DNA of 20,301 nucleotides, taken from the IMG/VR virus record IMGVR_UViG_3300031227_000555, positions 1 to 20,301 of that record. The stretch is one strand, 5' to 3'. The stretch comes from a virus. Below the pieces are notes generated by a model that saw nothing but the letters and a program-made list of their open reading frames with translations, was not told the DNA's origin and made no database searches. The position numbers and the translations under genes were made by a program. Shown piece by piece: positions 2,583-11,665 of the stretch (within the stretch, counting starts at the first letter, position 1; each line of letters begins with the position of its first letter).

Positions 2583-2805
2583 TTCTCATGCGGATGTCTG
2601 CATGTCTGACACCTCTATAGCGTGCGAGTCTGTAGCTACAACGGGGGTACATAATCCTGTTTGTGGCGTATCTGACTATGTTATGTTTTATAAAGGTGTT
2701 TGTCCGTATTCTGGGTGCCACACGTGTAAAGAATGCGCTCCAACTAGGTTAGAAGAAAAATTGTTACTTTTATTAACCTCTTCTGATATTTTTTGGCAGG
2801 CTTAA
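2575..2805 (+). CDS. Small cysteine-rich protein, about 76 aa
   Basis: The frame is open from a TTG at 2542, and ATG codons occur at 2551 and 2575. I chose 2575 because it gives the ATGTTTGA 8-nt overlap with the preceding gene, the same arrangement seen at 5262 and 13814 in this window; 2551 (84 aa) is the main alternative. The protein has seven cysteines, including a CPYSGCHTCKEC cluster (C43-x4-C48-x2-C51-x2-C54) and a nearby His49, which suggests binding of zinc or another metal. It ends 2 nt before the portal start. Unusual for a short phage gene is the combination of a metal-type cluster with a leucine-rich C-terminal helix (EEKLLLLL). Function unknown. It could also be a structural zinc-knob protein. 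Confidence 0.65.
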   Translation: MFDSHADVCMSDTSIACESVATTGVHNPVCGVSDYVMFYKGVCPYSGCHTCKECAPTRLEEKLLLLLTSSDIFWQA

Positions 2806-2807
2806 AA

Positions 2808-4742
2808 ATGGCGCGTAATGGAAAATTAATAATAACTGCTGGTGAGCATTCCAATATTCGTAGGGCTGCGGTTACTTCGCCTTATGATGCATCATTAGAT
2901 CGTGGACCAGCACCTCGTCGTCCACCTTTTGCTATGCATGGTAGTAAGGGCCTTGTACGGCGTGGGTCTATGGGATCCCTTGGTGGTGGTGCTGGAGCAG
3001 GTAGTGCGTCGCGTGGTGGTGGACAGTCTTTAGCGCAATCTCCGCTTTATTATGATTATCGTTGGTCTACTCCTGATAAATTTTATTACCCAAAAAATAG
3101 AGCGGTAGCTAACTCTATTTTCAGAGAAGTGTACAAACGCGATGCAGCGGTAGCCACAGCTACAGATATGTACGCTGAACTTCCTTGGTCAGAGTTTGAT
3201 TTGGCAGGAATAGATGATAAGCACATTAAACATATTTATGAAGATATGTTTTCTGAATTAAATCTTTTGCCAAAACTTACTGGTTTTACACGCGATTATC
3301 TTGTTTCTGGTGAACTTGTTTTACATAATATGTTTGATGCTACGCGGGGTATTTGGAATAGGATAATTCCGCATAATCCAGATTACGTTAGAGCGGAAGG
3401 TATTGGGCTGGTCGCGGAACAACCATTACTGTGGTTGTTGCCTACACCTGAAATTAAAAGATTGTTGAATTCGACTGATCCTAGAATCCGCCAATTGCAA
3501 AAGATACTACCAAAAGAAGTAGTAAATGCTTTCCGTGCGAATAAGGAAGTCCCGTTAGATCCACTTAATACTACCTTCCTAGCACGCCAATCTGTGTCAA
3601 CGGATGTACGTGGAACTTCGTTGTATTCGCGTATTTATCGTATTATTATGTATGAAGATTTCTTAGTGAATGCGGCATTAGCTGTTGCACAAAGAAATGC
3701 TGCACCGCTTCGAATATTTAAACTCGGTGATCCGACTACTGGGTGGTTGCCGGATGAGGATGATGAGGCAGCTTTCGCAGAAATGTTGTCTATGGCTGAA
3801 TCAGATCCACTTGGTGCGATCATTATGCACCATAACGTTAGCGCAGAGCTTGTTGGTGTGTCTGACCGTATGCTGTCCTTGTCCAAAGAATGGGACTTTA
3901 TTGAGCGTGTTAAGCTTATTGGGTTAGGTGTTTCTAAGTCATTCCTTGTCGGTGAAGCGTCGTTCGCGTCTAGTGTTGTAGGCATGCAAACACTATTACA
4001 ACGTCTGTTTGCTTTGCGTATGATGTTTGAAAATCAATGGATGATTCGTAAGATTTGTAAACCAATTGCACAGATTCATGAATTTTATAAACGGACTCCT
4101 GCTGAACTAGAGCATAGGATACGTATTAAAAAACCGTTAGACGAAGTTGAATTAATTCTTCCTAAGATTAAATGGAAGAAAACATTAGAATCACTGCAGG
4201 ACGTTGCGATTCTTAATGTTTGGCGCGATCTCAAAGAGCGGGGGGTTGTTTCCGACAGAACGTACGCTATGGGTGCTGGTGTAGACATTGAGTCTGAGCG
4301 TAAGAATATTTCTGAGGAACGCACGTATAAACAAGAGCACCCAGAAATTTATGGCATTCCTGGACAACAGGCACCCCAGTCTCCTATGGCAGGCCCTCCA
4401 GGTAAGCCCGGTAAACCCCCTGCGCCGGGTATGCCTCCAGCTTCAAAAGCTTTGAAAGAGGTAAGTAAAAAGCGTGCTGGATATAATCCATATTTACGTG
4501 ATCGGCATATCTCTGGTGTTGTTAGCGAGATTTCTGATGCTATCAGTGATGGTGTTGAGGAGTACACGAATAAAGAAGGCATGATTCATGCGGATGACGT
4601 AGCAGAAGTGGTAGATGATGCATTGGCTATGAATTCTGAAAATAACTTCTATTCAAAATTTGAGGAATTGAGTTCGTATCTTGAAGAAACAACGGATGAA
4701 GGGATTGATGATCTGTTAGATGAAAAGGAGTTTAAAATATAA
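2808..4742 (+). CDS. Portal protein
   Basis: The portal forms the dodecameric ring at one capsid vertex, through which DNA is packaged and to which the neck binds. The call rests on length (644 aa), position before the prohead protease and capsid genes, and a portal-like pattern: YYDYRWSTPDKFYYPKN near residue 80, an alpha/beta wing, a YEDFLVNAALAVAQRNAAP helix, and the long helical stem region ending in MGAGVDIESERKNISEER. I start at ATG 2808, 2 nt after the previous stop, rather than the TTG at 2793; the upstream GGCAGG is a weak binding site. The N-terminus is Gly/Ser/Arg-rich and probably disordered. Residues 516-544 are a Pro/Gly-rich linker, followed by an acidic helical tail, so the protein is longer than the T4 portal (about 520 aa). 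The stop overlaps the next ATG by 1 nt. Confidence 0.85.
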   Translation: MARNGKLIITAGEHSNIRRAAVTSPYDASLDRGPAPRRPPFAMHGSKGLVRRGSMGSLGGGAGAGSASRGGGQSLAQSPLYYDYRWSTPDKFYYPKNRAVANSIFREVYKRDAAVATATDMYAELPWSEFDLAGIDDKHIKHIYEDMFSELNLLPKLTGFTRDYLVSGELVLHNMFDATRGIWNRIIPHNPDYVRAEGIGLVAEQPLLWLLPTPEIKRLLNSTDPRIRQLQKILPKEVVNAFRANKEVPLDPLNTTFLARQSVSTDVRGTSLYSRIYRIIMYEDFLVNAALAVAQRNAAPLRIFKLGDPTTGWLPDEDDEAAFAEMLSMAESDPLGAIIMHHNVSAELVGVSDRMLSLSKEWDFIERVKLIGLGVSKSFLVGEASFASSVVGMQTLLQRLFALRMMFENQWMIRKICKPIAQIHEFYKRTPAELEHRIRIKKPLDEVELILPKIKWKKTLESLQDVAILNVWRDLKERGVVSDRTYAMGAGVDIESERKNISEERTYKQEHPEIYGIPGQQAPQSPMAGPPGKPGKPPAPGMPPASKALKEVSKKRAGYNPYLRDRHISGVVSEISDAISDGVEEYTNKEGMIHADDVAEVVDDALAMNSENNFYSKFEELSSYLEETTDEGIDDLLDEKEFKI

Positions 4743-5269
4743 TGGCTACAAAATTAAAAGTTAAAAAAATATTCATACATTGTTCAGCCTCCGCGTATGG
4801 TGATGTTCTCGTATTTGATGAATGGCATAAAAAGCGTGGGTGGTCAGGTGTAGGGTATCATTATATTATTTTGAATGGTAGGCCTTTTCCTGACGTGAAG
4901 TACTTCCCATTTCTTGATGGGCAAATACAGCCTGGAAGACATTTTGATGATGATCCTACATTTTCTCCAGATGAGATTGGGGCACATGTTGCTGGCCGTA
5001 ATGGGGAAAGTATTGGTATCTGTTTAGTTGGTGTAGATGTGTTTACTGCAGCCCAATTAAATCGTGCTAAATTTCTTGTATGGAGTTTGCTAGATTTCTT
5101 AGAGCTTACTGTTGAAGACGTCTTTGGACATTATGAGGATCCTAATACGAATAAAACGTGTCCTAATATTGAAATGGGGGATTTTAGAACATATTTACGA
5201 GGTAATATGACCATAGACGAATTAATCGCGAGCATAGCTGACTACAATAAGGGGTCAAAAAATGCCTGA
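4742..5269 (+). CDS. N-acetylmuramoyl-L-alanine amidase (T7 lysozyme-type endolysin)
   Basis: This is a zinc amidase of the Amidase_2/PGRP fold that cuts the bond between N-acetylmuramic acid and L-alanine in peptidoglycan. Compared with T7 lysozyme, the zinc ligands are His13 (in IFIHCSAS), His130 (FGHYED) and Cys140 (KTCPN), and the catalytic pair is Tyr39 (GVGYHYII) and Lys138. GAHVAGRNGESIGICLVG is the typical core strand. At 175 aa it is a single-domain enzyme with no separate wall-binding domain and no signal peptide, so export would need a holin or other route. The start is set by a 1-nt overlap with the portal stop and AAGGAG at 4725-4730. It overlaps the next gene by 8 nt (ATGCCTGA). 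Placement inside the head gene cluster is unusual, although this could also be a virion-associated or cell-entry enzyme. Confidence 0.93.
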   Translation: MATKLKVKKIFIHCSASAYGDVLVFDEWHKKRGWSGVGYHYIILNGRPFPDVKYFPFLDGQIQPGRHFDDDPTFSPDEIGAHVAGRNGESIGICLVGVDVFTAAQLNRAKFLVWSLLDFLELTVEDVFGHYEDPNTNKTCPNIEMGDFRTYLRGNMTIDELIASIADYNKGSKNA

Positions 5270-5894
5270 TATCCTAAAAGAATTTTTTGATAATGTAGTC
5301 AAAAAGGATATAAAGGGTGCAAAAATAAAGTTTAAAAATGAAAGCATATTTATGAAGGTTATGAGTGTACTTTTGTTTTTCAATAAAGATTTTATGAGTA
5401 ATTATACTACTGTTATTGGCAATACTGTGTATTTCCCGTCTAAAGAGTGGTTAGAGAAATCCAAGCATAAAGCTGTTAAAATTCTTTCACATGAATATGT
5501 GCATATGGTAGACAGGGATACTCATACGTTATTCTCTGTTAAATACTTGTTCCCACAGATATTAGCTTTGGGAGCGTTACTTTCATTTTTTTCTTTATGG
5601 TTTTTACTTTTTTTAATCTTTGCTGCACCACTGCCAGCACCTTGGCGCACGTATTTTGAGGTACGTGGGTACGCGATGAATATGTTGTTTGAGCAACACC
5701 TTGCACCGATTGGGTATAATGCACGTACAGCTGCAGGACGGCATGCTAAACGGTTTACTACGGCGGCGTATTATTTTATGGCATACCGCAAAGATCCTGT
5801 AGTTGATAAGCTTACGAAGTCTTTTGCAACGCTGCCAGGTAAACACCGAGCATTTATTGGAGTGGTGGCATGGCTAAAGACCCAAAAACTCTGA
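5262..5894 (+). CDS. Membrane-spanning HEXXH zinc metallopeptidase-like protein
   Basis: The protein (210 aa) has ILSHEYVHMVD, an HEXXH zinc motif with His77, Glu78 and His81, plus Asp84. A strongly hydrophobic segment follows (about residues 95-126), long enough for one membrane helix or a tight hairpin. Just after it lies WRTYFEVRGYAM, in which Glu133 is a good candidate third zinc ligand, as in gluzincins. This order, with a membrane insert between HEXXH and the third ligand, resembles M48-like membrane peptidases, but the chain is much shorter. The substrate is unknown. It is translationally coupled to the amidase by an 8-nt overlap, so a role in lysis, in membrane preparation, or in processing a host envelope protein is possible. 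Being in the head cluster, it could instead act on a virion protein. The motif is seen directly; activity is inferred. Confidence 0.85.
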   Translation: MPDILKEFFDNVVKKDIKGAKIKFKNESIFMKVMSVLLFFNKDFMSNYTTVIGNTVYFPSKEWLEKSKHKAVKILSHEYVHMVDRDTHTLFSVKYLFPQILALGALLSFFSLWFLLFLIFAAPLPAPWRTYFEVRGYAMNMLFEQHLAPIGYNARTAAGRHAKRFTTAAYYFMAYRKDPVVDKLTKSFATLPGKHRAFIGVVAWLKTQKL

Positions 5895-6658
5895 CGTTAT
5901 CTCCGACAAAAATTGATACGTTTTATGGGTGTCGTAGGTTGTTTAAGTACACATATCTGTCTCAACCCTTTAAGCAAAAAGATAATAAGTATTTTGTGAT
6001 TGGGAATATTGCACACAAGGTACTAGAGGACTGTCATAAAGTCGGCATGTCTAGTAAGATAAACTGGCGCAAAGATGCGTCACATTTTTTTAAAAAAGCA
6101 TATGCGACGTATAAAGTAAAGGAAAAACTAAAGTCAGGAATGTTAGAACCTGATGATGTAAAGAAAATTAAAATGATGCTTAAAAAATATATTGAATACA
6201 TAAAGTCTTTAGAAGAGCCACCCAATGTATTTAGTGTTGAAAAGTTAGCAAAGATTGCTATTGGTGGAGCAGTTGTTTGGCTTAAGTCTGATAGGGTAGA
6301 TAAATTAGGTGAAAACCATTATCGTGTGGTAGACTATAAGTCTGGGCAGGTTGCTTCAAAGAAGGCTGAGCTTGCTTCAGTCCAGTTGCCTTCATATGGT
6401 ATTTGGGTTCGCCAAAAGATAGACCCAGATGCTAAAGTTAGCGGTATGTATATATATCTTAAGGAAGTAGACAAGAAGAAGGGTAGGCACGAGTACGAGA
6501 TATCAGAGGCAATGATGGAAGAAGCGGAGGAAAAGTACAGTAATGTACGTAAGTTGCTTTCAAATGGTTGTGAATATTCTCAGAATTTTGATTATAAGTA
6601 CTGTTTTCACTGTGATTACAAACGCTTTTGCGTAAAGGATGAAAATGATGAGCTTTAA
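5870..6658 (+). CDS. PD-(D/E)XK nuclease, Cas4/RecB-like with Fe-S cysteines
   Basis: The 262-residue protein has the RecB/Cas4-type nuclease layout. LSPTKIDTFYGCRR gives Cys21 next to the N-terminal motif, GNIAHKVLE provides His49, SVEKLA and KSDRVDKL provide Glu124 and Asp141, VVDYKSG gives the catalytic Asp155 and Lys157, and QLPSY is the conserved QxxxY motif. The C-terminal CFHCDYKRFC gives Cys245, Cys248 and Cys254, which with Cys21 form the standard four ligands of a 4Fe-4S cluster. Such enzymes act on DNA ends as exonucleases. The start at 5870 overlaps the metallopeptidase gene by 25 nt and has GGAG upstream. The position between portal and protease is unusual for a recombination enzyme. 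Roles in end processing, recombination or counter-defence are possible and cannot be separated from sequence. Confidence 0.9.
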   Translation: MAKDPKTLTLSPTKIDTFYGCRRLFKYTYLSQPFKQKDNKYFVIGNIAHKVLEDCHKVGMSSKINWRKDASHFFKKAYATYKVKEKLKSGMLEPDDVKKIKMMLKKYIEYIKSLEEPPNVFSVEKLAKIAIGGAVVWLKSDRVDKLGENHYRVVDYKSGQVASKKAELASVQLPSYGIWVRQKIDPDAKVSGMYIYLKEVDKKKGRHEYEISEAMMEEAEEKYSNVRKLLSNGCEYSQNFDYKYCFHCDYKRFCVKDENDEL

Positions 6659-6896: not shown

Positions 6897-6933
6897 ACTC
6901 CTCGTTACTACTTTATGTACAGGAGAGTATTAT
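6892..6933 (+). promoter_or_regulatory. Inverted repeat covering the protease ribosome binding site and start codon
   Basis: ATAATACTC at 6892-6900 is an exact reverse complement of GAGTATTAT at 6925-6933. In RNA this gives a 9-bp, AU-rich stem with a 24-nt loop that would pair the end of the binding site AGGAGAG and the first two bases of the ATG at 6932. It is a plausible translation-blocking hairpin, but the stem has only two G-C pairs and is of modest strength. Confidence 0.4.
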
Positions 6934-7816
6934 GGCATTCTACAAGGTAGCTAAGGCACCTATTGTTGGCGTTTATCAATCCTCTGGTCGCTTTTCTAAG
7001 TTGGCTGCACAAAACGACGATATAAAGAAAACTGAGCAAGAGGGGATTGAGACTGCTCTTAATCTCCTATCAAAGGATGTCTTGACGGCTGTATCAAAGG
7101 TTTATGACATATCTGACGATATTAATGATTATATCTTCCCAATTCCTCGTGCTGTAACTGCAGACATACCTAATAATAATGGTGATAATTTTAAGCATGA
7201 TGAATTGATGCGCTTTTCTGCAGCACATCGTTGTTTAGTATTTCAAACACTTCGTAATGATCCACTACATGTAGAGCATGCTGCGGATGACCCAAAGACG
7301 GCACGCGGGTTTATTCCTGATGCATATTATGTCACTGGTGATCGTGACGACAAGCATGTGTTAACCCTCGTTGCTATGGATACATCAAAAGATCCACCTA
7401 TGGCAAATGGGTTACTTAGTGGTGAGATAGATTCATTTTCAATGGGGTGTATTTGCGAAGCGGTAACTTGTAGTATTTGTAATAAACGTGCAACCAGTGA
7501 TAGAAATTTATGTAATCATCTCCAATTTTATAAGATGTCGCACATTGATGGGCAGCTTGTGTATGAGGATTGTGAGGGGGTTGAATACCAGGAGTTATCA
7601 GCTGTTGGAAATCCTGCTGATCCTAAGGCAACGACACAAGCTTTGTTAAGATACGCAGCTAAGAAAGCTAGTGTTAATGATCTTCGTGCAGCATTTTCGA
7701 TATTATCGACATTGGTTAGTGATTCTGATCAACATGAAATAGCTAGATTTTTTGCAGCAAATTCAGGAAAGTTACCAGAAGCAATGTTGCGTTTAGCTGA
7801 TCAATTATTTTCTTAA
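6932..7816 (+). CDS. Prohead (capsid maturation) protease, S78-like, with zinc-finger insertion
   Basis: This serine protease of 294 aa cleaves scaffold and capsid N-termini inside the prohead. HK97-type protease signatures are visible: DPLHVEHA supplies the candidate catalytic His113 or His116, IDSFSMG contains the nucleophile Ser170 in the family's SxG setting, and YQELSAVGNPADP matches the usual ExSxVxxPAxP block with Glu221 as third member. Between Ser170 and Glu221 lies an insertion with Cys175, Cys180, Cys183, Cys194 and His196 (CSIC, ten residues, CNH), a likely zinc site. The N-terminal arm carries a NNNGDNF loop and the last 60 residues are helical, perhaps binding scaffold. The ATG has AGGAGAG 5 nt upstream; a hairpin may control it. 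It comes directly before the scaffold-like gene, the classic order. Confidence 0.85.
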   Translation: MAFYKVAKAPIVGVYQSSGRFSKLAAQNDDIKKTEQEGIETALNLLSKDVLTAVSKVYDISDDINDYIFPIPRAVTADIPNNNGDNFKHDELMRFSAAHRCLVFQTLRNDPLHVEHAADDPKTARGFIPDAYYVTGDRDDKHVLTLVAMDTSKDPPMANGLLSGEIDSFSMGCICEAVTCSICNKRATSDRNLCNHLQFYKMSHIDGQLVYEDCEGVEYQELSAVGNPADPKATTQALLRYAAKKASVNDLRAAFSILSTLVSDSDQHEIARFFAANSGKLPEAMLRLADQLFS

Positions 7817-7840: not shown

Positions 7841-7884
7841 AAATTTTTAATTAACAGCATAATTGGGTATAGTTAGGAGCTAGC

Positions 7885-9687
7885 ATGGCAAAAGCATTAC
7901 AGGGCATTCGAACACGTGTAGCAAAAAAGACCGCTGCGTTTGCAAAGCGTGCCCAACAAGCTCCCATGCCGTCTGCACCAGGCGCTGCTCCTGCACCTCC
8001 CGGACAAGATCCTGTAACTGCACCTCCAGGTGGTGCCCCTATGCCAGGTGGCCTGCCTAAACCGCAACCTCCTGCGCCAGGTGCAATGCCTAAGCCTCCA
8101 ATGCCCCCAGGAGCACCTGGCGCACCTGCTCCTCAAAAATCTAAAGAAGAGATTGAGCAAGATATTGAGAAAGAAATTCGAGAAAAGAAAGAACAAGAAA
8201 AGAAGATAGAAGAGCTTGATAAGAAAGTTACAAACATCGGAGATCAATTAGAAGGTTTGTCAACGTCGGTAAATACATTAGTTAATATGATGCAAGGTGA
8301 ATCCGGCGAATCTACCGATTTTGAAAAACGTCTTGAAGAAGTCAAGAAAGAGGATTCTTCTGGAGTTTCGTCTGGAGAATTCGGTTTACAGAACAGTACT
8401 AATCGATTAGTCCGTAAGGAGGATTTAAAAATGCCTAACGCTAAGAACAATGCAGCACTTCGTGCGGCTCGCAAAGCTCGGTTGCAAGCTAAAGTACAGG
8501 CGAAGACTGAGAAGAAAGCTGAAGAGCTAGATTTCGAGTACGGCACCCCAGAGAACAAGAAATACAAGCAACAAGTACCCCCACCTGCCAAGGGAACCAT
8601 TAAATCCAAGCCTGAAGATTGGGGCCAGTACCGCCTCAAAGCATCTCATATGGCTATGGATCTTAGTGCATCTGGTGATGCGTGGGTCGTGGTAGACAAG
8701 TACACAGACGATGCGTACTACACGATTGCTAACACAGACGCTGCGGAAGAATTTACCACAGAAGCTTTTGCTAAAGCAGTAATCAAAGATGTATTTGAGA
8801 TGGGCATGGAAGCTGCCATGCAAAAGTATTCAGCTGAGCCGCTTTTCGATAAAGATGAAGGAGATGATGGCGACGATGATGGCGACGATGTTTTGCCAGG
8901 GAAGAAAGATAATCAACCCCCAGGTATGCAGAATCGTAAGCGTAGAGGATTGCCTGACGCTCTGAAGCAAAAGATTGATGAGAAAAGAAATGGTAAACCT
9001 GGAATGCAGTCAAAGCCTGGCCTAGATGATAAGCCTGGATTGGGCGACAAACCTGGATTGGGTGATAAGCCCGGCTTAGGTAACAAACCAGGATTGGGTG
9101 ATGACAATAAGCCGTCTTTCCCAGAAAAACTAGGATCTGATGAAGACCAAGTTGAAGTAGAGCAGGTAGCACGTGTTGAGCCTGACCAAACTGACGTGGA
9201 AGCATCCTTTAACAAGGAATCTTATGCTAATGATTTCGGTCGAAGATTTGCTCGCGCTTTCCGTTTAGCTTTGACTGCACAACAAAAGAATCTAGAAGAC
9301 AATCCACTAAAAGGTGCTTGGTTTGAAATGCTGAGTGACTTGGATGTGGAAAATCCTGGCCGAGTAATTGAAAAAGTATTCGCAAGTGCTGTAGTTCCTC
9401 ATTTTGAGGCCGCACTTAAAAAAGCAGAAGAGTACTTGGACATGTCTGACGAATCTTTTGTGGATTTGGAATCGCAAATCGGTGACATGGATATTGGCGA
9501 GCCAGTAGACATGGACGAGATGGAAGAAGATGTGCGTAGTGAACGTGCTGCGAAAATGCGTGCACGTGCATCTCGGGCGTCTTTGCCTCTCTCAACTGCA
9601 ACGAGTGCAACTGCGCATGCTCAAGACATCGAGCGGATTAGTATGGCGTTGCCTAAGCCGAAGCTTTCTGGCATTAGCCGGAATTAA
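7885..9687 (+). CDS. Capsid scaffold-like protein (long form), Pro-rich and coiled-coil
   Basis: The 600-aa protein lies between protease and decoration/capsid genes, where the scaffold is usually found. Its order is a short basic N-terminus, a Pro/Gly/Ala-rich disordered segment (about residues 23-88), a charged coiled coil (about 88-140), a basic helix starting at Met183, a globular patch around residues 230-310, an acidic Asp/Gly run (DEGDDGDDDGDD), six KPG-type hexapeptide repeats (371-406), and a helical acidic C-terminus. There is no enzyme motif. Low complexity and coiled coil fit a scaffold that is cleaved and lost on maturation. TTAGGAG at 7874-7880 precedes the ATG. An in-frame internal start at 8431 probably gives a shorter product. 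A minor structural protein with a disordered linker is the main alternative. Confidence 0.8.
   Translation: MAKALQGIRTRVAKKTAAFAKRAQQAPMPSAPGAAPAPPGQDPVTAPPGGAPMPGGLPKPQPPAPGAMPKPPMPPGAPGAPAPQKSKEEIEQDIEKEIREKKEQEKKIEELDKKVTNIGDQLEGLSTSVNTLVNMMQGESGESTDFEKRLEEVKKEDSSGVSSGEFGLQNSTNRLVRKEDLKMPNAKNNAALRAARKARLQAKVQAKTEKKAEELDFEYGTPENKKYKQQVPPPAKGTIKSKPEDWGQYRLKASHMAMDLSASGDAWVVVDKYTDDAYYTIANTDAAEEFTTEAFAKAVIKDVFEMGMEAAMQKYSAEPLFDKDEGDDGDDDGDDVLPGKKDNQPPGMQNRKRRGLPDALKQKIDEKRNGKPGMQSKPGLDDKPGLGDKPGLGDKPGLGNKPGLGDDNKPSFPEKLGSDEDQVEVEQVARVEPDQTDVEASFNKESYANDFGRRFARAFRLALTAQQKNLEDNPLKGAWFEMLSDLDVENPGRVIEKVFASAVVPHFEAALKKAEEYLDMSDESFVDLESQIGDMDIGEPVDMDEMEEDVRSERAAKMRARASRASLPLSTATSATAHAQDIERISMALPKPKLSGISRN
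8415..8423 (+). promoter_or_regulatory. Strong internal Shine-Dalgarno inside the scaffold gene
   Basis: TAAGGAGGA is a near-perfect complement of the 16S rRNA anti-Shine-Dalgarno and stands 8 nt before the in-frame ATG at 8431. It is what supports the nested start. Confidence 0.65.
8431..9687 (+). CDS. Nested in-frame short form of the scaffold-like protein (418 aa)
   Basis: An ATG at 8431 sits in the same frame as the 600-aa gene (codon 183) and is preceded by TAAGGAGGA at 8415-8423, the best ribosome binding site of the region, at 8-nt spacing. The product would begin MPNAKNNAALRAARKARLQ, a basic helix, and keep the repeats and the acidic C-terminus but lack the Pro-rich/coiled-coil part. 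Nested in-frame scaffold genes are established in other phages: lambda Nu3 is expressed from within gene C. It may equally be an ancestral gene boundary where two genes fused and kept both starts. Translation from here is inferred from the binding site only. Confidence 0.6.
   Translation: MPNAKNNAALRAARKARLQAKVQAKTEKKAEELDFEYGTPENKKYKQQVPPPAKGTIKSKPEDWGQYRLKASHMAMDLSASGDAWVVVDKYTDDAYYTIANTDAAEEFTTEAFAKAVIKDVFEMGMEAAMQKYSAEPLFDKDEGDDGDDDGDDVLPGKKDNQPPGMQNRKRRGLPDALKQKIDEKRNGKPGMQSKPGLDDKPGLGDKPGLGDKPGLGNKPGLGDDNKPSFPEKLGSDEDQVEVEQVARVEPDQTDVEASFNKESYANDFGRRFARAFRLALTAQQKNLEDNPLKGAWFEMLSDLDVENPGRVIEKVFASAVVPHFEAALKKAEEYLDMSDESFVDLESQIGDMDIGEPVDMDEMEEDVRSERAAKMRARASRASLPLSTATSATAHAQDIERISMALPKPKLSGISRN
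8995..9102 (+). repeat. Six 18-bp coding repeats (KPGLGD type) in the scaffold gene
   Basis: Six consecutive 18-nt units begin at 8995, 9013, 9031, 9049, 9067 and 9085. They encode KPGMQS, KPGLDD, KPGLGD, KPGLGD, KPGLGN and KPGLGD. The first is degenerate. Third positions vary between units, so the peptide rather than the DNA appears to be maintained. The segment is probably a flexible extended linker. Confidence 0.9.
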
Positions 9688-9743: not shown

Positions 9744-10463
9744 ATGCTAGATAAAAAAAGAGGTTATGCTTATTCTCGCCCGTTCTTCGATGTTGACGGT
9801 AATGTTAATATCTATGCTGGTATGGTTGCGTTTTTAACAACCTCCGGTGGATCGGCTGTCGCTACTACTGGCGCATCTGGAACAGTGCCTATCGGTACTT
9901 TCTGGAAAGATGCTGCCGCAAGTTGGTTGCGTGCAACTGTTGAAGCAGGTACGTTCAGTGCCGCTGGTACGATTAACTTGAGCAAGGGTAATGTATCTAG
10001 TACTGCTTTTGTAAAAGTAACCAGTGCAGATGGTGCGACAGTTTATACCCAGGGTGTTGACTATACCATCGCAGCGGCTAATGGTGTCGTAACCCGCGTT
10101 GCTGGCGGAGCGATTGCTGCGTTAGCTAGTGTTCTTGTGTGGTACCGCTATACCGTGCAAAACGCTGAAGTGTACTGGGATAACGTGTCCACTCAGTGGA
10201 CTGCTGCTGGTCAGAATTATGATCGTCAGCCTAATGATACTCTCGGATCAAGTAAGATTACCGTTTGTACTGGTGATGCACTGCTTTATACCGATCAGTA
10301 TGATCCTACCCAGACTTATACACTGAATTCTACGTTGTATTCTGACGCAAACAGTCTGTGGACTACCGTTGGTACGTATACTTCTGCTTGTGGCCGTGTG
10401 GTTAAAGTTCCTACCGCGTCTGATCCTTTCTTGGGCGTACAACAGGTTACGGTAGCTGCATAA
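9744..10463 (+). CDS. Capsid decoration/stabilisation-like protein, 239 aa
   Basis: This gene sits directly before the major capsid gene, the usual position of a decoration protein that binds the capsid surface. The N-terminal part contains GNVNIYAGMVAFLTT and TVPIGTFWKD, which resemble phage capsid-decoration and related surface proteins. The C-terminal part contains GSSKITVCTGDALLYTDQYD and the ending DPFLGVQQV. Between them, at residues 80-137, is a beta-type module (GVDYTI, then WYRYT) that resembles a segment of the tail sheath protein at 16999. It is rich in Thr, Ser, Ala and Val, as expected for an all-beta surface protein. AGAGGAAAG precedes the ATG. The specific family is not recognised. 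Confidence 0.75.
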   Translation: MLDKKRGYAYSRPFFDVDGNVNIYAGMVAFLTTSGGSAVATTGASGTVPIGTFWKDAAASWLRATVEAGTFSAAGTINLSKGNVSSTAFVKVTSADGATVYTQGVDYTIAAANGVVTRVAGGAIAALASVLVWYRYTVQNAEVYWDNVSTQWTAAGQNYDRQPNDTLGSSKITVCTGDALLYTDQYDPTQTYTLNSTLYSDANSLWTTVGTYTSACGRVVKVPTASDPFLGVQQVTVAA

Positions 10464-10522
10464 TTGGGTAGGCCGGGAGTCTATTCCAATATTAACCGTT
10501 TGATTTTTTAAGGAGGAAGCAA

Positions 10523-11665
10523 ATGAGTAAGATTAATCCCTATGTAAAGAAGGCTTCCGGCATGGTAAATGTAGACCGGGCCACTGGGGACGAGTTTAAT
10601 CCCCTAAACGTTGGACGTACCCGTCGGTCTGGATCGTTGTCTCGTTCCGCCAACGAACGTATGTTTAACAATCGCGGCGAACTGAACGCCTCGAACACCA
10701 AAGAAGCGCTGCATACGATCCAACATGTGTTGGATTCGATCAGTGACGGATCATATACTGTTGATCTGCAAAAAAGCGCTTCGTTTGCCGGTGATGGAAT
10801 GGGCGCTGATGAGAGCGATGCTATCATTCGAGAAGCATTTTCGGATCCAAGTAGTGAAGGATTCCGTCAGGTCGGCCAGGGTCTCTTAAATCCGATCAAA
10901 GAAGTTATCGACTATGAGGGACTTGCACGCAAAGTATTCGCGCCAAGAACCGTAAAAGCCGGTGAAGTGGTTCGTTACGACAAGGATGTATATGTGAAGG
11001 CCTGGGTCATCGCAGAAGATGGTCAGACTCCACAATCCGTTGTCGAGGGACGTTACATCTATCCCCCAGAGTTTGAAGTAACTGCTTATCCCTCAATCGA
11101 GATCAAAGACAAGTATCGTGCGCAGTATGATATCTTAGCACGTGTCCAAGATCGTGCGCGTATGGCGATTGAGTATCAAGAAGATTTGGCGCTGATTAAT
11201 CTGTTGCAATCTGGTGCTAATCAAGTAAACACAACCACAGCGTTTGCCACTCTTAACTTGGCTGCGTTGGAATCCATCCGGTACCAGATTGAACGGCATC
11301 GGTTGATTTGTGATAAGTTCATTATTCATCGTCAAGAAGTTAGCGATCTGGTGAATACCTTGTCACAACAGGTTGATCCAGTTACCCAACGCGAATTAAT
11401 CTTGGCTGGTTATATTGGTACAGTATTGAATGCCATGATTATCACAACTGCCGGTACTCAGACTTTTGAGATTTTGGAACCTGGCGAAGTTGTGGCCGTT
11501 ACTGCTCCTGAGTACTTGGGTGGTATGCCTATTCGTGTCGAGCTTTTCTCTGAGCCAGTAAATGAGTTCATGGAAGGTAGACCTCGTCAAGGTTGGTTCT
11601 GGTATGAGTTGATCAGTCAGGTTCTGGTCAATCCAGCTGGTGTGGCCCTCGGGTCCAAGACTTAA
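10523..11665 (+). CDS. Major capsid protein (HK97-fold type)
   Basis: This 380-aa protein would form the capsid shell. Evidence is its place after protease, scaffold and decoration genes, and the pattern of an HK97-like shell protein: a polar, probably cleavable N-terminal arm (roughly the first 100 residues), an extended-loop segment around YPPEFEVTAYPSIEIKDKY, a long spine helix ILARVQDRARMAIEYQEDL, and a C-terminal strand set with PEYLGGMPIRVELFSEPVNE and VLVNPAGVAL. The ribosome binding site AAGGAGGAA at 10511 is strong. Codon use is richer in C-ending codons than in neighbouring genes, as expected for a very highly expressed gene. A strong terminator follows 21 nt downstream. Confidence 0.88.
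   Translation: MSKINPYVKKASGMVNVDRATGDEFNPLNVGRTRRSGSLSRSANERMFNNRGELNASNTKEALHTIQHVLDSISDGSYTVDLQKSASFAGDGMGADESDAIIREAFSDPSSEGFRQVGQGLLNPIKEVIDYEGLARKVFAPRTVKAGEVVRYDKDVYVKAWVIAEDGQTPQSVVEGRYIYPPEFEVTAYPSIEIKDKYRAQYDILARVQDRARMAIEYQEDLALINLLQSGANQVNTTTAFATLNLAALESIRYQIERHRLICDKFIIHRQEVSDLVNTLSQQVDPVTQRELILAGYIGTVLNAMIITTAGTQTFEILEPGEVVAVTAPEYLGGMPIRVELFSEPVNEFMEGRPRQGWFWYELISQVLVNPAGVALGSKT

Follow-up and report, generated by a model that had tools for sequence, protein, structure and literature searches.

In this study, we present comparative evidence that a nested, in-frame translation start within the scaffold-like gene of an uncultured virus is real, in an arrangement like that of C and Nu3 in phage lambda; one gene therein probably makes both a long and a short scaffold protein. 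The gene lies in the head module of a 20.3-kb viral contig, which is referred to here as the window. This module comprises a portal gene (2793-4742), additional genes between portal and protease, a separate head maturation protease gene (6932-7816, plus strand; PHROG 18299, E 4.9e-42, with homologues in phages), a scaffold-like open reading frame (ORF) of 600 amino acids (7885-9687, plus strand), a gene for a decoration-like, Ig-like virion protein (9744-10463, plus strand; PHROG 807, E 4e-7), the major capsid protein gene (10523-11665, plus strand; PHROG 2522, E 3e-56) and a tail sheath gene. The order of portal, protease and scaffold, decoration and major capsid protein is the same in the window and its relatives, in which the decoration-like gene occupies the same slot.

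An earlier note on this DNA had pointed to a consensus Shine-Dalgarno sequence ahead of an in-frame ATG at codon 183, and this is what the gene contains. The sequence TAAGGAGGA (8415-8423, plus strand), read in the long frame as the codons AAG GAG GAT (K-E-D), precedes an ATG at 8431-8433 of the 600-codon ORF, with 8 nt between GGAGG and the ATG; from this ATG, a nested ORF of 418 amino acids runs to the shared end (8431-9687, plus strand). The start of the long form is preceded by a weaker Shine-Dalgarno sequence in the TTAGGAGC region (7874-7879, plus strand; dG -6.5). On both strands of the window, TAAGGAGG is present in only two copies, one at the scaffold-internal site and one ahead of the major capsid protein gene (10509-10516, with the ATG at 10523); in itself the sequence is mildly rare, since at least two copies were found in 10 of 100 shuffles. 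Shine-Dalgarno sequences are generally depleted within bacterial genes (PMC5100845), and across the related loci GGAGG was in range at only 5 of 1,136 other in-frame internal ATGs. This scarcity, together with the conservation at the nucleotide level described below, argues that the position of the internal motif is not due to chance. Compared to the gene average, the mRNA around the internal site is modestly less structured (mean percentile 0.32), and a search of the plus strand for internal promoter candidates found none.

A direct search with the scaffold protein gave no matches among phages or viral contigs, and a search of genome contigs found no relatives. The major capsid protein retrieved 19 viral contigs, 17 of which contained enough upstream sequence; each of these carries a single long ORF of 419 to 600 amino acids in the scaffold slot. 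Further members were added by a profile scan, giving a set of 22 nonredundant sequences, including the window, from which duplicates and contig L001 were removed. The internal ATG is at the same alignment position in all 22, just 3' of an E(F/L/M)G motif and nearly always just 5' of a basic segment of the LRxxRKxRL type, and GGAGG is located 5 or 8 nt upstream of it in 20 of the 22. Both the internal binding site and the boundary, which the earlier note had proposed to compare among relatives, are therefore kept. Furthermore, the pattern that would count against a second start, a peptide that is kept while the Shine-Dalgarno sequence is lost, is mostly reversed: the residues at the site vary (KED, KEG, KEE, TED, NEE, REE, LEE, VEE and EEE), whereas the bases stay constant. 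The exception is a pair of near-identical contigs, L045 and L046, which retain KED but spell it with the weaker AAAGAGG; the only other weak site is GGGAGA in L040. No relative was found in which the two halves are separate genes.

The comparison indicates that selection maintains the internal site across distant relatives. Under a synonymous-codon null based on the usage of each gene, GGAGG is expected in 4.9 of the 22 sequences, compared to the 20 observed; among the 17 relatives that are near saturation at fourfold sites, it is expected in 3.4 and observed in 15 (tail, ~1.5e-10). Glu179, which lies centrally in the motif, is encoded by GAG in 16 of 16 sequences, whereas GAG makes up 12 to 53% of the codons in other conserved Glu columns, none of which exceeds 10 of 19. 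The predicted pairing with the anti-Shine-Dalgarno sequence is as strong at the internal site (median, -12.1 kcal/mol) as it is at the major capsid protein start (-12.0 kcal/mol), compared to -8.8 kcal/mol for both the long form and the decoration protein and -7.4 kcal/mol for the protease, and the short-form site is the stronger of the two scaffold sites in 20 of the 22 genes. If output follows Shine-Dalgarno strength, then the two high-output products would be the capsid protein and the short scaffold. Taken together, these sequence comparisons strongly support an internal translation start that would yield a 3'-coterminal short scaffold. Contig L001, which was left out of the set, differs from L013 at a single base over 16 kb (99.99% identity), apart from a clean in-frame deletion of 75 nt (around position 5987; compare L013 4810-4884) that removes the internal Shine-Dalgarno sequence, the ATG and the first short-form codons and leaves the long frame intact. 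This deletion may be an assembly artefact or may mark a viable variant that lacks the short form; if it is real, it represents a natural variant that lives on the long form alone or starts elsewhere.

The nearest named genome is that of Rctr197k, the capsid protein of which is 47% identical to that of the window. Together with the IMG/VR contigs L049, L059 (near-identical to L061), L060 and L062, it forms a sister group that shares with the window a homologous C-terminal domain, the same gene order and, at the homologous place just 5' of an alpha/beta patch, an internal ATG; however, in this group the protease and scaffold are fused in one ORF that encodes about 1000 amino acids (KX853510, 55254-58250 in Rctr197k), so that the lambda-type layout, with the protease encoded at the 5' end of the long ORF, is found here. 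The sites before the internal ATG are AAGGAG, AAGGAG, GGAGG and AAGGAGG in four of the five members; L060 has only CGAGGA. In these genes the motif is encoded by the rare Arg codons AGG and AGA, and the synonymous null predicts 0.25 occurrences in five (tail, ~4e-7). A profile of the helical C-terminal domain (9211-9650, plus strand, in the window) matched Dickeya phage AD1 gp140 (6.9e-11), Rctr197k (4.2e-8), L049 (6.8e-7) and PaBG gp082 (3.3e-4); hhalign gave an E value of 8.8e-9 for this domain, and Foldseek related it to the PaBG protein with an E value of 5.3e-6 and a low TM-score. PaBG gp082 and AD1 gp140 occupy the same slot as the window gene and likewise accompany a separate protease gene, but neither of these scaffold genes, nor the separate ones of BcepSaruman and RHEph12, contains an internal Shine-Dalgarno-ATG pair. 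An extra AD1 gene in this region, gp141, has no detectable homology to the arm, the part of the window protein that is present only in the long form.

In the capsid protein tree, the fused sequences form one clade that joins the split ones, and the PaBG/AD1 group falls outside both; support for the fork that unites fused and split sequences is 89/80, and it was drawn open, with long branches present. The arms of the fused and split groups have in common a Pro-rich composition and the E(F/L/M)G motif, a resemblance for which we do not claim homology. Based on the sequences compared, the common ancestor of the fused and split groups probably already had the nested start, which would then have outlasted a move of the protease in either direction. 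The nested start is kept both with and without a protease on the long form. On this basis we advance a broader proposal tentatively, giving it slightly less than an even chance: the nested start would be independent of the protease, the arm would accordingly have a protease-independent role, such as in nucleation, in recruiting the portal or protease, or in the control of size, and two ribosome sites of unequal strength would set the ratio of long to short forms, which may matter for assembly, as the earlier note suggested.

The earlier note also held that the protein changes character near codon 183, and the AlphaFold2 model supports this boundary, at a mean pLDDT of only 58. In the long form, a low-confidence Pro-rich stretch (residues 26 to 81) is followed by a long helix (87 to 138) and a second low-confidence region (158 to 183); past codon 183, there is a helix (186 to 219) and then an alpha/beta patch (256 to 314). 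The structure models are weak (pLDDT, 58 and 74). The arm (7885-8430, plus strand), delimited by the alignment and the model, is composed of a basic N-terminal helix that is conserved among relatives, the Pro-rich stretch, a coiled coil and an acidic region with the E(F/L/M)G motif, and the short form is composed of a basic helix, the alpha/beta patch, a flexible linker and the helical C-terminal domain. The linker varies greatly in length among relatives, and in the window it contains a tandem 18/36-nt repeat (9011-9102) that encodes KPGLGD units.

The identification of this protein as a scaffold draws on the order of the genes and on weak homology. No family in Pfam or PHROG was matched (no PHROG at E 0.001), and the relative L018 reached PHROG 20988 at only E 0.043. 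Among solved structures no scaffold was matched; the best Foldseek hit in the PDB had an E value of 2.5, and the best VIA-align match (Z 6.2) fell on the long-helix stretch and is not meaningful. It could be argued from these searches, and from the annotation of the PaBG and AD1 homologues as ATPases, that the protein, rather than being a scaffold, is a different part of the head, such as an internal or core protein, of which two forms are made. We regard this as unlikely, although it deserves consideration: in the relatives the gene is preceded by that for the protease and followed by those for the decoration and major capsid proteins, its sister-group counterpart is fused to a protease, as in lambda and P2 (PMC8508860), and its low-complexity, helical composition is frequent in scaffolds. 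The ATPase label of PHROG 20988 (PaBG gp082, L053 2419-4350; AD1 gp140, L051 2683-4677) is itself doubtful; judged by position and C-domain homology, this is the scaffold family of these large phages.

We consider it likely that two 3'-coterminal scaffold proteins arise from one mRNA region by means of two independent starts. Ribosomes would initiate at 7885, behind a moderate Shine-Dalgarno sequence, to give the 600-amino-acid long form and independently at 8431, behind the consensus sequence, to give the 418-amino-acid short form. Most of the internal scaffold, which gathers the major capsid protein, would probably consist of the short form; the long form, probably the less abundant of the two, combines the common C-terminal domain with the arm, which may anchor it to the portal, protease or core. 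We infer that the phage makes both proteins and more of the short one, that the C terminus binds the capsid protein and that the arm has a role of this kind. The lambda protease, scaffold and portal come together in an initiator complex (PMC3224144), and by analogy the long form may couple the scaffold to the portal or protease. The greater strength of the short start and the lack of a known domain in the arm would also fit a simpler explanation, in which only the short form matters and the upstream stretch is a small gene without its stop codon, with incidental readthrough. However, the frame is open across the junction in all of the relatives examined, no stop was found between the halves, and the sister group likewise reads from the protease into the scaffold, which makes this explanation improbable.

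There is little likelihood that the internal GGAGG serves instead to pause translating ribosomes, for example, during folding of the arm or coiled coil. Internal Shine-Dalgarno-like sequences can slow translation, as discussed previously (PMC5100845), and the site does lie at a domain boundary; however, pausing requires no ATG, and an ATG follows at the same position in every relative, at a start-like distance of 5 or 8 nt from GGAGG wherever that motif is present. Furthermore, in 19 of 22 sequences the internal Met is followed by a small residue (S, P, T or G), as expected of a true N terminus, compared to 115 of 288 (40%) for other internal Mets, and the pairing strength equals that of the major capsid protein start. 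The suggestion that a conserved Lys-Glu-Asp/Gly peptide gives rise to the motif incidentally, with no translational role for it, can draw on the presence of KE(D/G/E) in over half of the relatives, for which AAG GAG G is one spelling, but it is scarcely credible given that the bases are constant under a changing peptide, that the 17 divergent relatives carry the motif far more often than codon choice predicts, that GAG is fixed at Glu179 and not at other Glu columns, and that the sister group spells the motif with other residues, using Arg AGG.

The nested, independently started scaffold thus remains the preferred reading, and the parallel with lambda that the earlier note drew for it holds in part. 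In lambda, the long product of gene C is a protease, and the Nu3 scaffold is nested within it in frame. As in lambda, the shorter scaffold of the window starts in frame inside a longer gene, with its own Shine-Dalgarno sequence and a common stop codon, and the gene is placed between those for the portal and the decoration and major capsid proteins; unlike lambda, the protease is encoded separately and the long product carries a Pro-rich, coiled-coil arm that is not a protease. The likeness is one of arrangement, and we claim no sequence homology to gpC or Nu3. In the Mu-like phage KS10, the scaffold gp29 is embedded in frame in gp28 and has its own ribosome site (PMC2628397), which again resembles the window except that the host gene of the embedded scaffold is the protease; KS10 was the only case that our literature search on Mu gpI/gpZ turned up. 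Since its long ORF is not a protease, the clade of the window represents a variant of the nested scaffold of lambda and Mu.

These comparisons extend the nested-scaffold arrangement of lambda and Mu to myovirus-like phages of a large uncultured group and indicate that the nested start persists when protease and scaffold are separate genes, thereby providing a natural comparison for the purpose of the long form when it does not deliver a protease. They also imply that annotation pipelines miss a second, probably abundant, head protein in these genomes.

Several related observations were made. In the fused ORFs of Rctr197k (L025, codon 350-354) and L059 (codon 404), a second internal ATG with a Shine-Dalgarno sequence (MSRAAQ.. 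and MSRSAS.., respectively) is located at the protease/arm boundary, roughly where the long form of the split group begins, and these ORFs possibly give three products. Fused-protease ORFs of actinophages also contain an internal ATG after AAGGAGG or GGAGG (Phrappuccino gp53, L058 1081-3639, codon 321; I3 gp103, L052 1866-6092, codon 632). In Bacillus phage G, gp23 is annotated as a join that extends gp22 (L050 4366-6035), between the protease and capsid genes, and may be a frameshift product. Finally, the head module of the window includes a gene (5262-5894), flanked by amidase and PD-(D/E)XK nuclease genes, for a protein that combines hydrophobic stretches with an HExxH-like motif (SHEYVH).
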